Source of the DNA: a virus
Virus record (IMG/VR): IMGVR_UViG_3300042371_001175
Location: 1 to 34,879 of that record
DNA length: 34,879 nt
Strand: one strand, 5' to 3'
Below the pieces are notes generated by a model. It was given only the letters and a program-made list of their open reading frames with translations. It did not search any database and was not told the origin of the DNA. This document shows positions 1,559-16,960 of the stretch, one piece after another. Every line of letters begins with the position of its first letter. The stretch's first letter is position 1. A program made the translations under genes and the position numbers.

Positions 1559-4063
1559 TTAAAGTAAAATTATGTTATTATCATTTAAGATAATATCCGA
1601 TCCATCTTCAAATAAGATGTTTTCAAACTGTATACCTATAATTGGTTGATCTATAAGTGTACCACACTCTCCACCAGTACATACCTGCGCAGCTTCCCAA
1701 TTCAATTCGTATGGTATGTCAGTATTATTAAATAAAGCCATTTCCCATCCTAAATCTGGATACTGTATAGATTGTGTTGGAGAAACATAAGTAGTAGCTT
1801 GATCGTATTCGAACGTCGAATTGGACCATGGATACCAAGATCCTCGAACGGATCCGACATGTGTAATCTTATTCTGCATAGCGTCCGCGATAGTGATATC
1901 GGCGTATCCATCTGATAATGACGTATCATCCCAGAATTTAAGGTATTCGAGATAATCACGTTGAGATTCTTCCGAGGAAGAATTACTCGCAGCGATGATA
2001 GATTGACATATAACGTAGACCGCGCGAATGAAATTAGCTTCTGCCCCTTCGGCGATTAATGCCGCAATGATGAATCTAAGTTTTCTGTTATTTGAACTCA
2101 ACCAACCAGGTTGAAACTTAGGGCTATGAAAAGCATTCGATGATGGGTCGAGTACTCTCGGGCTGATAAAGGCATTTAGCCAAGTTAGATCTACCGTAGG
2201 ATTCGTCGAACCGTAGTTGATATAATTATCCCATACGTTCGAACGGAAAACCAATACTAACAACTCGGAAAATAGATATAGTCCAGCAGGATGTACTAAT
2301 TTTAGATACGCTTTTTCCCAATCTTCTAATTGAATACCTGTTCGAATGCCATAAGAATATTCTTGCCAACGATAGCCATCTTGAATTTTATTCCTATCCG
2401 AGATGAATCCTTTTCGATCACTATATTTCCAGGTATCGAATACATTTTTTATCGATGGTTCCCAGGTGTAATGATTAAAGTCAGTACATTCATATACGTC
2501 ATCGGTTCCTAATACAACTACTAATTCTCCTAACGATTGCGGGACAGTAGCTCCGGTATTATTTACAAAATACGTCGTGGTGAACGTCCCTATAGGAGAT
2601 AGCCATCCATTGATACCTCCGCTTAAATTAGTTGGTAATAACGTTGTCGTAATTGTTCCTGTAACATTACCTTCAGCGAAAGCCGTTACTAAAGCACTTG
2701 CCTCGGTTGAGGTGTTTATAGCCGAAATAATCTGTAGCGCACTCGATATTCCCGAGGTAACAGTAGGCGTACCATTCCCAAATGCTGCAGTATTCCATAA
2801 AATTGAACTAGGATCATCTGAAATAGTTATTTCAGAACTGCAATAATAAACAGCGTCATTAGTAATACCAACTTTAGCATTTAAGTAATATTTTGTTTGA
2901 CCAGACGCATATAATATCTCAGAATAATCATTGGTTCTATATGCACCATATGATAGCCCATCACTCGACCAATATGGTTTTTCGCCGAAAGTTCCGGCTT
3001 CTAAAAATACACCGGTAGTAATTGGTTGATTATTATCATATCTTGTCAATGATCCACTGACTATCATCCGCGCGGTTGTTCCCGGAGTCACGGTAATTTG
3101 TGTACCAGATACAGCTACACTAGTGATAGCTTGTTGTATCGCAGAGGCATATGCGATTGAAATATTATTTCCAAATAAACCCGCAACATTAGCGACATAT
3201 GTTACAGTATTATTTAACCCAAATTGGTCAATCGTTAGCGTAGCAGCAGTCGATTCTTCGTCAATTGAAGGATTCCAATTAATCGCATCTTGAGGATTAA
3301 TTACATTCGAATATGAAAACCATGCATATCCTTCTACAGTTAATACCCATCTAATATTTGATGAATCCCAATAAAGTACCTGCGAAGGATCGGTCGATGA
3401 CGCATACCGCGCTCTGCCGTTTAAATCGCTGATCCTATTCAGTGTATCAAACGTGAATATATTAATTCCGTCCAATGTCAAGGATGATTCAGTGACCGTC
3501 AAAATTTCCGGAGTCGCGGTTAAGATATCGGTATCACTTAAGATAAACGTACTATCAATTGGGTTGATCGTGATATACTCCGGTTCCGCGCTAATCGGCG
3601 CGTCAGTCAAGATTCGATCGATCTCAAATTGCGCCGGTATTACTTTACCAGAACCGTCGGATGTCTTAAACAGATAGTCTTTCGGATAGATCAATTCGAT
3701 GAGTTCATCGAAGAATATTCGAAAGAATACCATGGCGCTATCCGAGGTTCCACGGATACTATAATACTTTACGATTTTTTTATATAAAGATACTCGATCT
3801 AGCACCCGCGAATTCGGTATGCTATTCGCGATTTCTGCCTGAATCGCATCGAGGTAGGAAGCAGAGACTCGATCGATGTCATGTTCAGCGGTTATATTAG
3901 AAATAACGTTGCTCGGAAGCCCGACGGTATTCATGTATTCATAATATTGTTCCAAGAACCCGATCAACGCAGTGGCATTCTCAGATATCGCCTGAGGTAA
4001 CAATTCGCGAACTCGTTGCGATTCTTGATTTCGCGGTCTGGAATCTACTACGCTAAGTATCAT
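1559..4063 (-). CDS. Large baseplate-associated structural protein (834 aa)
   Basis: The first ~130 residues are well-ordered and helical (LPQAISENATALIGFLEQYY, then IRGTSDSAMVFFRIFFDEL), followed by a long Ser/Thr/Val-rich beta-type middle and a C-terminal region. I recognise the N-terminal pattern as typical of structural proteins in marine and freshwater T4-like phages, but cannot assign it firmly to T4 gp7, gp8 or gp10. Its ATG overlaps the end of gp6 by 4 nt, so it is translationally coupled to the wedge operon, and it lies between gp6 and the fibre gene. A role as outer wedge or fibre connector is inferred from position. Confidence 0.7.
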   Translation of the reverse strand: MILSVVDSRPRNQESQRVRELLPQAISENATALIGFLEQYYEYMNTVGLPSNVISNITAEHDIDRVSASYLDAIQAEIANSIPNSRVLDRVSLYKKIVKYYSIRGTSDSAMVFFRIFFDELIELIYPKDYLFKTSDGSGKVIPAQFEIDRILTDAPISAEPEYITINPIDSTFILSDTDILTATPEILTVTESSLTLDGINIFTFDTLNRISDLNGRARYASSTDPSQVLYWDSSNIRWVLTVEGYAWFSYSNVINPQDAINWNPSIDEESTAATLTIDQFGLNNTVTYVANVAGLFGNNISIAYASAIQQAITSVAVSGTQITVTPGTTARMIVSGSLTRYDNNQPITTGVFLEAGTFGEKPYWSSDGLSYGAYRTNDYSEILYASGQTKYYLNAKVGITNDAVYYCSSEITISDDPSSILWNTAAFGNGTPTVTSGISSALQIISAINTSTEASALVTAFAEGNVTGTITTTLLPTNLSGGINGWLSPIGTFTTTYFVNNTGATVPQSLGELVVVLGTDDVYECTDFNHYTWEPSIKNVFDTWKYSDRKGFISDRNKIQDGYRWQEYSYGIRTGIQLEDWEKAYLKLVHPAGLYLFSELLVLVFRSNVWDNYINYGSTNPTVDLTWLNAFISPRVLDPSSNAFHSPKFQPGWLSSNNRKLRFIIAALIAEGAEANFIRAVYVICQSIIAASNSSSEESQRDYLEYLKFWDDTSLSDGYADITIADAMQNKITHVGSVRGSWYPWSNSTFEYDQATTYVSPTQSIQYPDLGWEMALFNNTDIPYELNWEAAQVCTGGECGTLIDQPIIGIQFENILFEDGSDIILNDNNIILL

Positions 4064-13697: not shown

Positions 13698-14432
13698 ATG
13701 TCCATACTTTCATCAATCACCGGTCTAGTTGATAAGGCCGAAAAATATATCAATCCAAGTACGATCGACGATTTTAAAAGTACGATTGGCAAAAGGAACG
13801 GTTTGGCAATGGCCAATCGTTTCTTGATTATGGTACAACCACCGAGTCAATCGTTACTTAATTTCAATATAGGAGACCTTGTCAGTAGAGTTTTGCTAGG
13901 CAATAAGATCAACGTGTCCGATTTCGTAAACGATCCTAGGGATATCGCTATGTTGTGCGAAAGTTGTTCATTACCTGGAAGACAAATCCAAACCTTAGAT
14001 TATTCTTCGTATCGTCAATCAGTAAAAGTCCCGACAACTTATGTCAATGAGGATGTGCAAATGACGTTTCATCTCACCAACGATTATTATATTCGTAAGG
14101 TATTTGATAAATGGCATGAACTAGTTCTCAATCAAGAATCTTATCTTTTAAATTATAATAAAGATTTTTCTGCTGATATTATCATTCAACAGCTAAATGC
14201 TCAAAATAAGCCAGTTTATGCCGTTAAACTAAAGAATGCCTATCCGGTTGGGATTAACAGCATCGCGTTAGACAACACCATGAATGATACTACACAAAAG
14301 TTAGTCGTACAGATTACTTACGAAGATTTTGAACAAATGGGTACTATCGCCTCGACTGTAGAGGGTGTGAAAAATAATATAACCGGCGCCCTAAAAAATA
14401 ATATAACCGGCGCCCTAAAAAAATTGATATAA
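13698..14432 (+). CDS. Tail-tube-like protein (gp54 initiator or gp19 type)
   Basis: 244 aa. It has the tube-protein pattern MANRFLIMVQPP near residue 36, LCESCSLPGRQIQTLDYSSY, then VQMTFHLTNDYYIRKVFDKW and NAYPVGINSIALD..KLVVQITYEDFE, as in gp19, gp54 and other Hcp-fold tube proteins. Because gp48 is adjacent and T4 gp54 also has a tube fold, I favour the baseplate tube initiator; the major tube protein gp19 normally lies with the sheath gene, not seen here. It starts 2 nt after the previous stop. The C-terminus carries an exact 8-residue duplication (KNNITGAL twice). Confidence 0.72.
   Translation: MSILSSITGLVDKAEKYINPSTIDDFKSTIGKRNGLAMANRFLIMVQPPSQSLLNFNIGDLVSRVLLGNKINVSDFVNDPRDIAMLCESCSLPGRQIQTLDYSSYRQSVKVPTTYVNEDVQMTFHLTNDYYIRKVFDKWHELVLNQESYLLNYNKDFSADIIIQQLNAQNKPVYAVKLKNAYPVGINSIALDNTMNDTTQKLVVQITYEDFEQMGTIASTVEGVKNNITGALKNNITGALKKLI
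14370..14417 (+). repeat. Perfect 24-bp tandem duplication in the tube-like gene
   Basis: Units 14370-14393 and 14394-14417 are identical and in frame, encoding KNNITGAL twice just before the C-terminus. Perfect DNA identity indicates a recent slippage or duplication event. Confidence 0.95.
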
Positions 14433-14442: not shown

Positions 14443-15153
14443 ATGGCATTACCAACAATTAGCACCCCGAAATATCAATTGAAGTTACCCTCAACCGGTG
14501 AATCAGTCTCGTACCGCCCATTTTTAGTCAAAGAAGAGAAGATCCTACTCATCGCCCAGGAAACGAAAGATCCTAAACAAATGATGGCCGCGATGGGCGA
14601 CATCATCTCGGCATGTACCTTCGACAAAGTAAAAACCTCTGAGATCACTTCGTTTGACCTCGAATATATTTTCTTAAAACTAAGAACCAAGAGCGTTGGC
14701 GAAAATGCCGATATCAAAGTTCAGTGCCAAAAATGCGAAGAATATAATGCGGTATCGATCAACCTCGATGAAATCACCGTAGAAGTTCCTGAAAAGAAAA
14801 ATGCGACGATCATGCTGACGGATTCGATCGGAGTCACGCTTAAATACATCGACGCGAAGAAGATGGAAAAGATCACTGGCCTCATCGAAACGAATCAAAT
14901 GGCAGTGATCAATGAACTTATTATCAACTCAATCGAGTCGATCTTTGACGATAGCAATGTCTATCCTGCTATTGATTCTACACCCGCCGAACTTACACAA
15001 TTCATCGAATCGTTGAATCGTCAACAAATGGAGAAGATCGAGAATTTCATCGGTAATGCTCCTAAGCTTCAACACATCTGCGAATTTAAATGCTGCAAGT
15101 GTGGAGAAGAAAATTCAATTACATTACAAGGAATTCAGTCTTTTTTCGAATAA
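14443..15153 (+). CDS. 26: gp26-like baseplate / tail assembly protein
   Basis: 236 aa with the pattern of the T4 baseplate-protein (gp26) family: ISTPKYQLKLPSTGESVSYR, PFLVKEEKILLIA, then FDLEYIFLKLRTKSVGE. Two cysteine pairs (CQKC near 100 and CCKCGEEN near 225) suggest a zinc site. In T4, gp26 and gp51 assist hub assembly. Here the gene directly precedes the tape measure gene, the position of tail assembly chaperones in other phages. The last sense codons TTT TTC lie in a canonical slippery heptamer, allowing a -1 shift into the gp51-like frame. Confidence 0.85.
   Translation: MALPTISTPKYQLKLPSTGESVSYRPFLVKEEKILLIAQETKDPKQMMAAMGDIISACTFDKVKTSEITSFDLEYIFLKLRTKSVGENADIKVQCQKCEEYNAVSINLDEITVEVPEKKNATIMLTDSIGVTLKYIDAKKMEKITGLIETNQMAVINELIINSIESIFDDSNVYPAIDSTPAELTQFIESLNRQQMEKIENFIGNAPKLQHICEFKCCKCGEENSITLQGIQSFFE
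15141..15147 (+). other. Slippery heptamer T TTT TTC for -1 frameshifting
   Basis: In the gp26 frame the codons are TCT TTT TTC GAA TAA. The heptamer T-TTT-TTC fits X-XXY-YYZ, and a -1 slip here reads TTT TTT CGA ATA AGC into the gp51-like frame. The zero-frame stop follows one codon later. No strong downstream hairpin is evident within 40 nt. Confidence 0.7.
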
Positions 15154-15332
15154 GCCTCTCGCATGAGTCATTAGAAAATTTCTATCAAACGAATTTTGCT
15201 CTGATGCAACATCATAAATATAGCCTAACGGAATTAGATGATATGCTACCATGGGAGAGGGAAATCTATACTGCATTACTCGTAGAGCATCTAAAAGAAG
15301 AAAAACGCAAAAACGAAGCTTCTAGGCACTAA
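15141..15332 (+). CDS. 51: gp51-like C-terminal extension, expressed by -1 frameshift from gp26
   Basis: The -1 frame gives 61 residues after the slip, with the conserved small-protein pattern LENFYQTNFALMQHHKYS, LTELDDMLPWEREIYTALL and a charged tail. No good start codon lies at the right place: ATG at 15090 is deep inside gp26, ATG at 15204 would delete the conserved first 19 residues of the domain, and ATG at 15163 is in another frame and stops at once. The predicted fusion is 296 aa. Lambda gpG/gpGT and many other phages make tail assembly chaperones this way just before the tape measure gene. The alternative is independent translation from 15090. Confidence 0.72.
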   Translation, partial: FFRISLSHESLENFYQTNFALMQHHKYSLTELDDMLPWEREIYTALLVEHLKEEKRKNEASRH

Positions 15333-15337
15333 CTATT

Positions 15338-16960
15338 ATGGCACAAAGACGAGGACCAACACAGGGATTATTGCTTCAGGACGTGATCCTTGAATTACAA
15401 ATCTCCAATGAAAACGTATCGGGTATAGAGACAGGAGTCACGATGCTCGTCGATTCCGTCTCTGCGTTATCGTCCTCGACGAATAAAAATGATGACATCA
15501 TCGTCGACAATGATGATAAAATGCTGTATGCATTGAAGAGCATAGGACTACTAAACCTTAGCATGTTGAGTACGTTGAATCGCCTATACATGTTTTTCAT
15601 GAACAGCGACATGATTAGAACCGAGCAACAGCAAGATTTGATCGACGCGATCGAGGATATCGGCAAAGACGATAAAAAAGTTCAGCTTGGCGGATCAAAA
15701 TCAAGTGGTCTCCTTGGATTATTGGGCGGAGTCGCTTTTTTTGCCGGAGGATTTTTATCGGGACTTTTTGAAAAAATTAAGAGTATGGTATGGTATACCA
15801 AAATCATCGATTTTTTCACAGATATCGCAACAAAATTTACTCGCATCAAAGCGATTGTGACCGGATCTAAAATCTATACAATGATAGAAGATGCATTTTC
15901 GAGGATGAGAAAAATCTTTGGAGGTATCGGTGCTTTCCTCGGTAGAATTGGTTCATTCTTAGAAAAAATCCTTGAACCAATATTTGATGTGATTCGTAAG
16001 ATGCCTATCAGTCGATTCATTAACGAAGCAATTAGTCTAATAAATAAAGTATTTGGATTTATCATGAAACCACTTAAATTCATCATTAGTTTATTAGGTA
16101 GTGTGGGAGGCGGAAGTTTCCTAAAAACGATGTTTAGTATCGGTAAAGGTCTTGCACGGGTATTTAGTAAACTCCTCTTGCCGATAACGATTATCATCGG
16201 CGTCATTGAAGGAGCGATGGGGGCGTTTGAAGGTTATAAGACCGGCGGTGTAATGGGAGCGATCAAGGGCGGTCTAAAGGGTCTCCTAAATAGTCTGATC
16301 GGATGGCTCATCGATATTCCAAAAGATCTCATCTCTTGGATGCTTAATATGTTCGGTTTTGAGAATGCCTCGAAGTGGCTCGATAGCTGGAATTTTGCAA
16401 GCCTATTTGATGATCTCTGGGAAATGTTTTCTGGATTATGGGATACAATACTTTCTACAATTTCTGCAATCACTGATTGGTGGGAAAGTTGGTCTTTCGA
16501 AGGAATATGGGAAGGCATCAAAGATTTCTTCTTTGGAATCTGGGACGGAGTTATTGATTGGTTAAAAGGTGTAGGAGGACAATTAGGTAGCGTATTAGGA
16601 AATGCTAAGGATTTCATTGAAAACTTTTATAAATCAATACTTAGAGAAATCTTACCAGATAGATCAGAAAACCGCCCATGGTATGATCCAATTGGGATGG
16701 TTACTATGGCTATTCCTGATGATGTATATCGATGGGCAAATATGCCAGTATCGACCCCAGCTATTTCTACAAATATGCAAATGATGCCTAAATCTTCTGG
16801 ACAAAATTTAATAGCAAGTGGTGGAGGATCAACTGCTGTTATTAATACTTACAACACTCATAATTATCAAACTTCGACGAATGTGACGGCAAATAACGGA
16901 GGATCGAGAGGGACGCAGTCTCCGCGCTATTCTCCAGGCGGATCCTCTATGCCAGAATAA
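15338..16960 (+). CDS. Tape measure protein (gp29-like)
   Basis: 540 aa. The N-terminus is polar and helical, then many hydrophobic helical segments rich in Gly and Phe (SGLLGLLGGVAFFAGGFLSG; VFGFIMKPLKFIISLLGSVG; LLLPITIIIGVIEGAMGAFE), a Trp-rich stretch (ITDWWESWSFEGIWEGIKDF), and a Ser/Asn/Gly-rich tail. This composition and the position right after the gp26/gp51 chaperone pair fit a tape measure, the function of T4 gp29, which sets tail length inside the tube. It is the last gene of the plus-strand block. Identity rests on composition and synteny. Confidence 0.75.
   Translation: MAQRRGPTQGLLLQDVILELQISNENVSGIETGVTMLVDSVSALSSSTNKNDDIIVDNDDKMLYALKSIGLLNLSMLSTLNRLYMFFMNSDMIRTEQQQDLIDAIEDIGKDDKKVQLGGSKSSGLLGLLGGVAFFAGGFLSGLFEKIKSMVWYTKIIDFFTDIATKFTRIKAIVTGSKIYTMIEDAFSRMRKIFGGIGAFLGRIGSFLEKILEPIFDVIRKMPISRFINEAISLINKVFGFIMKPLKFIISLLGSVGGGSFLKTMFSIGKGLARVFSKLLLPITIIIGVIEGAMGAFEGYKTGGVMGAIKGGLKGLLNSLIGWLIDIPKDLISWMLNMFGFENASKWLDSWNFASLFDDLWEMFSGLWDTILSTISAITDWWESWSFEGIWEGIKDFFFGIWDGVIDWLKGVGGQLGSVLGNAKDFIENFYKSILREILPDRSENRPWYDPIGMVTMAIPDDVYRWANMPVSTPAISTNMQMMPKSSGQNLIASGGGSTAVINTYNTHNYQTSTNVTANNGGSRGTQSPRYSPGGSSMPE

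Follow-up and report, generated by a model that had tools for sequence, protein, structure and literature searches.

Reading frames and features at the gp26/gp51 locus

The sequence IMGVR_UViG_3300042371_001175 of IMG/VR, from a T4-like marine virus and analysed here as a single window of 34,879 nucleotides (positions 1 to 34,879 of the record), contains a gene for a T4 gp26-type protein whose 3' end overlaps a gp51-like domain in the -1 reading frame. The gp26 gene (14443-15153, on the plus strand, as are the other parts of the locus) encodes 236 amino acids and matches both PF12322 (T4_baseplate, E 2.2e-61) and PHROG 150 (E 8.4e-65). Its 3' end reads CAG TCT TTT TTC GAA TAA, in which T TTT TTC at 15141-15147 forms a heptamer of the X XXY YYZ type in register with the gp26 frame, and the gp26 stop codon at 15151-15153 stands two codons past it. 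The -1 frame is open to 15332 (stop codon at 15330-15332), and a ribosome that slipped on the heptamer would read on as FF-R-I-S-L-S-H-E-S-L. This -1 frame extension (15144-15332) carries the gp51 domain, which matches PHROG 634 (baseplate hub assembly catalyst, E 7.9e-28), and the tape measure open reading frame starts at 15338, just 3' of its stop. An earlier note on this DNA had described the heptamer in the last codons of gp26, the open gp51-like domain and the tape measure gene directly after it, and had proposed a programmed -1 frameshift in the gpG/gpGT layout of tail assembly chaperones (TACs); all three elements lie where it had placed them. Translated alone, gp26 would be the short chaperone form (TAC-N), and the predicted joined product, with the gp51 domain as its C-terminal part, would be the long form (TAC-NC, 296 amino acids in all). 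Judged by comparison with relatives, the locus is very probably a tail assembly chaperone of the gpG/gpGT type expressed by -1 frameshifting.

A candidate stimulator lies upstream of the slip site. The Shine-Dalgarno-like element AAGGA (15128-15132) ends 8 bases 5' of the heptamer, and among the relatives described below anti-Shine-Dalgarno pairing peaks about 7 bases 5' of it, with a mean of -6.1 kcal/mol, on the codons for a conserved Glu-Gly. The element keeps a fixed distance from the heptamer in the relatives, and its pairing exceeds that of synonymous-codon controls in 85 of 105 loci (paired Wilcoxon P 2.6e-11), with GAG and GGA over-used, and the element possibly helps frameshifting.

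Conservation among relatives and alternative routes to gp51

Two scans of viral contigs yielded 161 sequences with both genes, a set in which the window is counted twice and a few contigs were fetched by both scans; dropping sequences more than 85% alike left a non-redundant set of 105 loci. The gp51 domain lies in the -1 frame relative to gp26 in all 161 sequences, and an in-register TTTTTT[C/T/A] heptamer is kept in 160 of them. The sole exception, relative L138, reads TGTTTTC rather than TTTTTTC at this site (around its positions 2990-3030), which may reflect either a variant slip site or an error in the sequence. Because a search with gp26 alone does not touch the heptamer, the 80 loci fetched in this way were not selected for it, and the heptamer is present in all 79 that reach gp51. 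Other Phe-Phe pairs of the same 105 loci take the slippery form in only 30 of 428 cases (7%). The earlier note had asked whether relatives conserve the heptamer, and it is indeed kept wherever a -1 gp51 follows gp26 in this lineage and in wider relatives, except in Ackermannviridae-type phages.

The use of the two frames changes at the heptamer. The most variable codon position passes from position 3 of the gp26 frame before the heptamer to position 3 of the -1 frame right after it, and conservation among the aligned -1 products starts at FF. All 105 loci run into a gp26-frame stop within 30 bases past the heptamer, their -1 frame is free of stops over the 140 bases past it, and 98 have a -1-frame stop 30-60 bases 5' of it; purifying selection acts on both frames across the relatives. 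The same heptamer occurs in the isolates P-SSM2, S-PM2, S-CAM1, ACG-2014f, ACG-2014j, P-HM1, MA10, C48C1, Mosig, Melnitz, Aeh1, nt-1, EniLVp02, OLIVR5, YB07, X1 and Milchi, and phiM9 has T TTT TTG, so that some 18 isolate genomes from several families share the arrangement. It persists in Kyanoviridae, Straboviridae (Aeh1, nt-1, EniLVp02), Pootjesviridae, Menderavirus and others.

The claim of the earlier note that gp51 has no suitable start holds only in part, because an in-frame ATG does exist at 15090-15092. This ATG is the 'aATGc' within AAA TGC, the Lys-Cys codons of the gp26 zinc ribbon; an upstream ATG is found in just 2 of the 105 loci, and comparison of the sequences marks the one in the window as a non-conserved decoy that arises by coincidence from those codons. 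It is improbable, though the best placed of the alternatives, that gp51 is a separate gene read from a start of its own, at this ATG or near the gp26 stop and perhaps by coupled re-initiation. For P-SSM2, S-PM2 and others, annotators do let gp51 begin just past the stop of gp26, and TGATG or TAATG overlaps set a -1-frame ATG on the gp26 stop in YB07, phiM9, EniLVp02 and nt-1. However, between the preceding -1 stop and about 35 bases past the heptamer, 64 of the 105 loci have no ATG, GTG or TTG, so that the missing start codon that the earlier note proposed to look for in relatives is found in most; 84 have no ATG within reach of gp51, and an upstream start of any type is present in only 7. A separate gene would also leave the fixed in-register run of six T and the conservation from FF unexplained, and the gp51 of T4 is itself an in-frame fusion. 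Heptamer, frame, conservation, the scarcity of separate starts and the homology of the joined product to T4 gp51, described below, are shown by comparison of sequences.

Where TGATG or TAATG stands at the gp26 stop (L168, L170, L172 and L176), a free gp51 domain might be made besides the joined form. Public annotation, surveyed in L162 (ACG-2014j), L175 (Aeh1), L178 (S-CAM1), L163 (P-SSM2), L164 (Mosig) and L167 (Melnitz-3), omits gp51 where a start codon is absent and otherwise starts it 2-54 bases past the gp26 stop, at a varying position.

The same joined protein could arise if RNA polymerase slipped on the T run and a fraction of the mRNAs gained one extra base, an explanation that the run of 6-8 T at the junction favours and that is nonetheless very improbable. 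The run is six T and then C in 76 of the 105 loci, and six T are usually too short for transcriptional slippage; nor would such slippage need the X XXY YYZ register that the T run keeps, although the Phe-Phe codons could also fix that register. Homopolymer runs are error-prone, but a sequencing or assembly error or a broken gene is scarcely credible and is refuted by the recurrence of the arrangement in 161 metagenomic sequences and the isolates of several families, and by the selection on both frames.

Possible chaperone fold and proposed mechanism

The gene order around the locus is tail tube, gp26/gp51 and tape measure, and it backs the gpG/gpGT layout proposed in the earlier note, with which the probable fold of gp26 agrees. 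The tail tube gene (gp19/gp54-like, 13698-14432) lies directly 5' of gp26 and matches PHROG 45 (tail tube, E 2.6e-33) and Pfam Phage_T4_gp19 (E 6.6e-8); the tape measure gene (15338-16960) encodes 540 amino acids and matches PHROG 58 (tail length tape measure, E 1.2e-11) and several more tape measure families. A 24-base perfect tandem repeat, AAAAATAATATAACCGGCGCCCTA, is present in 2.2 copies at 14370-14422, at the 3' end of the tail tube gene, and long tandem repeat arrays with periods of 15, 30, 90 and 105 bases occupy positions 9-1367 at the start of the window.

AlphaFold modelled gp26 with pLDDT 90, and the model was compared with the Protein Data Bank (PDB), of which 999 chains were realigned. 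The top fold match among these is YqbN (3klu; Z 7.2, rmsd 3.3, 85 aligned residues, gp26 residues 117-208), an XkdN-type tail assembly chaperone (Pfam Phage_TAC_5), and the second is the HK97 tail assembly chaperone (2ob9; Z 6.9, rmsd 4.8, 83 aligned, gp26 residues 1-90), with the next matches at Z 4.8, 3.2 and lower. These Z-scores are moderate, but a chaperone role of gp26 is likely, because the top two fold matches have the expected function and the gene order fits. The two halves of gp26 match different chaperone structures, residues 1-90 that of HK97 and residues 117-208 that of YqbN, and zinc-ribbon-like cysteines are found at C95/C98 and C217/C220; the model suggests two chaperone-like domains in one protein. 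PF08890 (Phage_TAC_5) was tried as a family for the window and gave no sequence match, and neither the gp26 nor the gp51 profile has a credible match among PDB chain sequences.

In the phage lambda model, the tape measure protein is coated by the short form, while the long form, which is the rarer, recruits tail tube subunits (PMC5009743). This model is taken as the mechanism here because the fold matches and the gene order make a chaperone role likely. The slippage itself, its rate, the stimulating role of the Shine-Dalgarno-like element and the function in assembly are inferred. Most ribosomes would read gp26 to its stop and produce the short form, whereas in a minority both Phe tRNAs would re-pair to TTT on T TTT TTC, one base back, and these ribosomes would continue through the gp51 domain to produce the long form. 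On the lambda analogy, binding of the tape measure protein would fall to the gp26 part that both forms share, and recruitment of tail tube subunits to the gp51 part.

Several results weigh against this reading. In some relatives a chance ATG stands just past the gp26 stop, and a separate gp51 is possible there. The fold matches of gp26 all fall below Z 8, a level that alone may reflect a common arrangement. The gp51 domain alone matches no known chaperone family in Pfam, and its fold search, made with a weak model (pLDDT 70), gave no usable match. Alifold on the 105 loci found no common downstream RNA structure; the minimum free energy of the 70 bases past the site is on average about 3 kcal/mol below that of synonymous controls, an excess that is weak and scattered and lacks a shared fold, and a conserved downstream pseudoknot or hairpin was dropped as a stimulator for these two reasons.

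The probable frameshift locus in T4-related phages

In T4, gp26 and gp51 are both given as hub assembly chaperones (PMC3004832). The gp26 proteins of the window and of T4 both match PHROG 150, but T4 gp26 (208 amino acids) covers positions 14-235 only, while T4 gp51 (249 amino acids) covers 13-280. T4 gp51 aligns in a single stretch across the junction, from profile positions 74 to 280 (E 9.7e-11), with a profile made from the 105 virtual joined products; related gp51 proteins match this profile at E values down to 2.5e-14, whereas T4 gp26 aligns with it only up to the junction. The two T4 proteins thus belong to the same family, gp26 being the counterpart of the short form and gp51 that of the long one. 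Unlike in the window, the two forms are encoded in T4 by separate genes on opposite strands, and the gp26 gene has no slippery heptamer; gp26 genes of Tevenvirinae likewise lack it and read TTC TTT, TTC ATT or similar at this site. The earlier note had regarded loss of the heptamer in close relatives with a kept gene order as telling against a frameshift, and the loss found is that in the T4 clade, in which a complete separate gene encodes the long form; all the comparative checks that the note proposed favoured its reading. Among the sequences compared, the heptamer is thus present together with the -1 extension and missing where a separate gene makes the long form. Such a distribution would be expected had a gene duplication split the two products in T4, a direction of change that we infer.

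In Ackermannviridae-type phages, the -1 domain after gp26 is kept and the junction is different. A conserved -1 gp51-like domain with an MPWHLD motif stands at the gp26 stop in L174, L195-L212 (Ackermannviridae) and L177 (Vibrio phage K448), and the heptamer is replaced by GA(A/G) ATT TTC ATT TAA or CTT TTC AAG TAA. Judging by these sequences, the shift or restart seems to take place at another kind of site there. It may tentatively be suggested, as a possibility that falls somewhat short of an even chance, that frameshifting from gp26 to gp51 on the run of six T, aided by the Shine-Dalgarno-like element, is the original and prevailing route in T4-related phages, that the separate T4 genes are derived, and that the Ackermannviridae-type phages, at this same junction, went over to another site for the shift or restart, a non-canonical one.

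The gene order in the window is that of lambda gpG/gpGT and of the chaperone frameshift that long-tailed phages conserve. The window differs from lambda in its T TTT TTC heptamer and in a gp26-type chaperone of about 235 amino acids with a zinc ribbon, and the likeness is claimed without sequence similarity to lambda G and T. T4-like phages offer precedents too. A passage in PMC10885494, citing Vladimirov, Gautam and Davidson 2022 (Virology 566:9-15), describes T4-like phages in which two genes, one short and one a longer fusion, take the place of frameshifting, and a passage in PMC12846349, citing the same work, ascribes polyT slippery sequences to the TAC-N genes of T4-like phages. As far as these citing passages convey it, the window fits both the short and long forms and the polyT site. 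A conserved -1 frameshift just 5' of the tape measure gene is also found in the chaperone locus of Vandenendeviridae and Andersonviridae (Pseudomonas phage Adele), which differs in its slippery motif, GTTTTT, and belongs to another phage lineage (PMC12846349). The earlier note had pointed out that the two genes are usually treated as separate in a T4-type system, and the layout is less new than this suggested. Separate genes do hold for T4, but T4-like chaperones were already identified in 2022, to judge from the passages in PMC10885494 and PMC12846349; the kind of system is known, and the window is a further member of it.

The tail frameshift was described in a 2016 review as conserved 'except T4' (PMC5009743), yet relatives of T4 do carry the frameshift signal, and T4 gp26 and gp51 look like the two frameshift products after gene separation. 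Many public genomes of cyanophages and T4-like phages have gp51 annotated with a wrong start or not at all, and this poorly understood protein gains a clear role to test.
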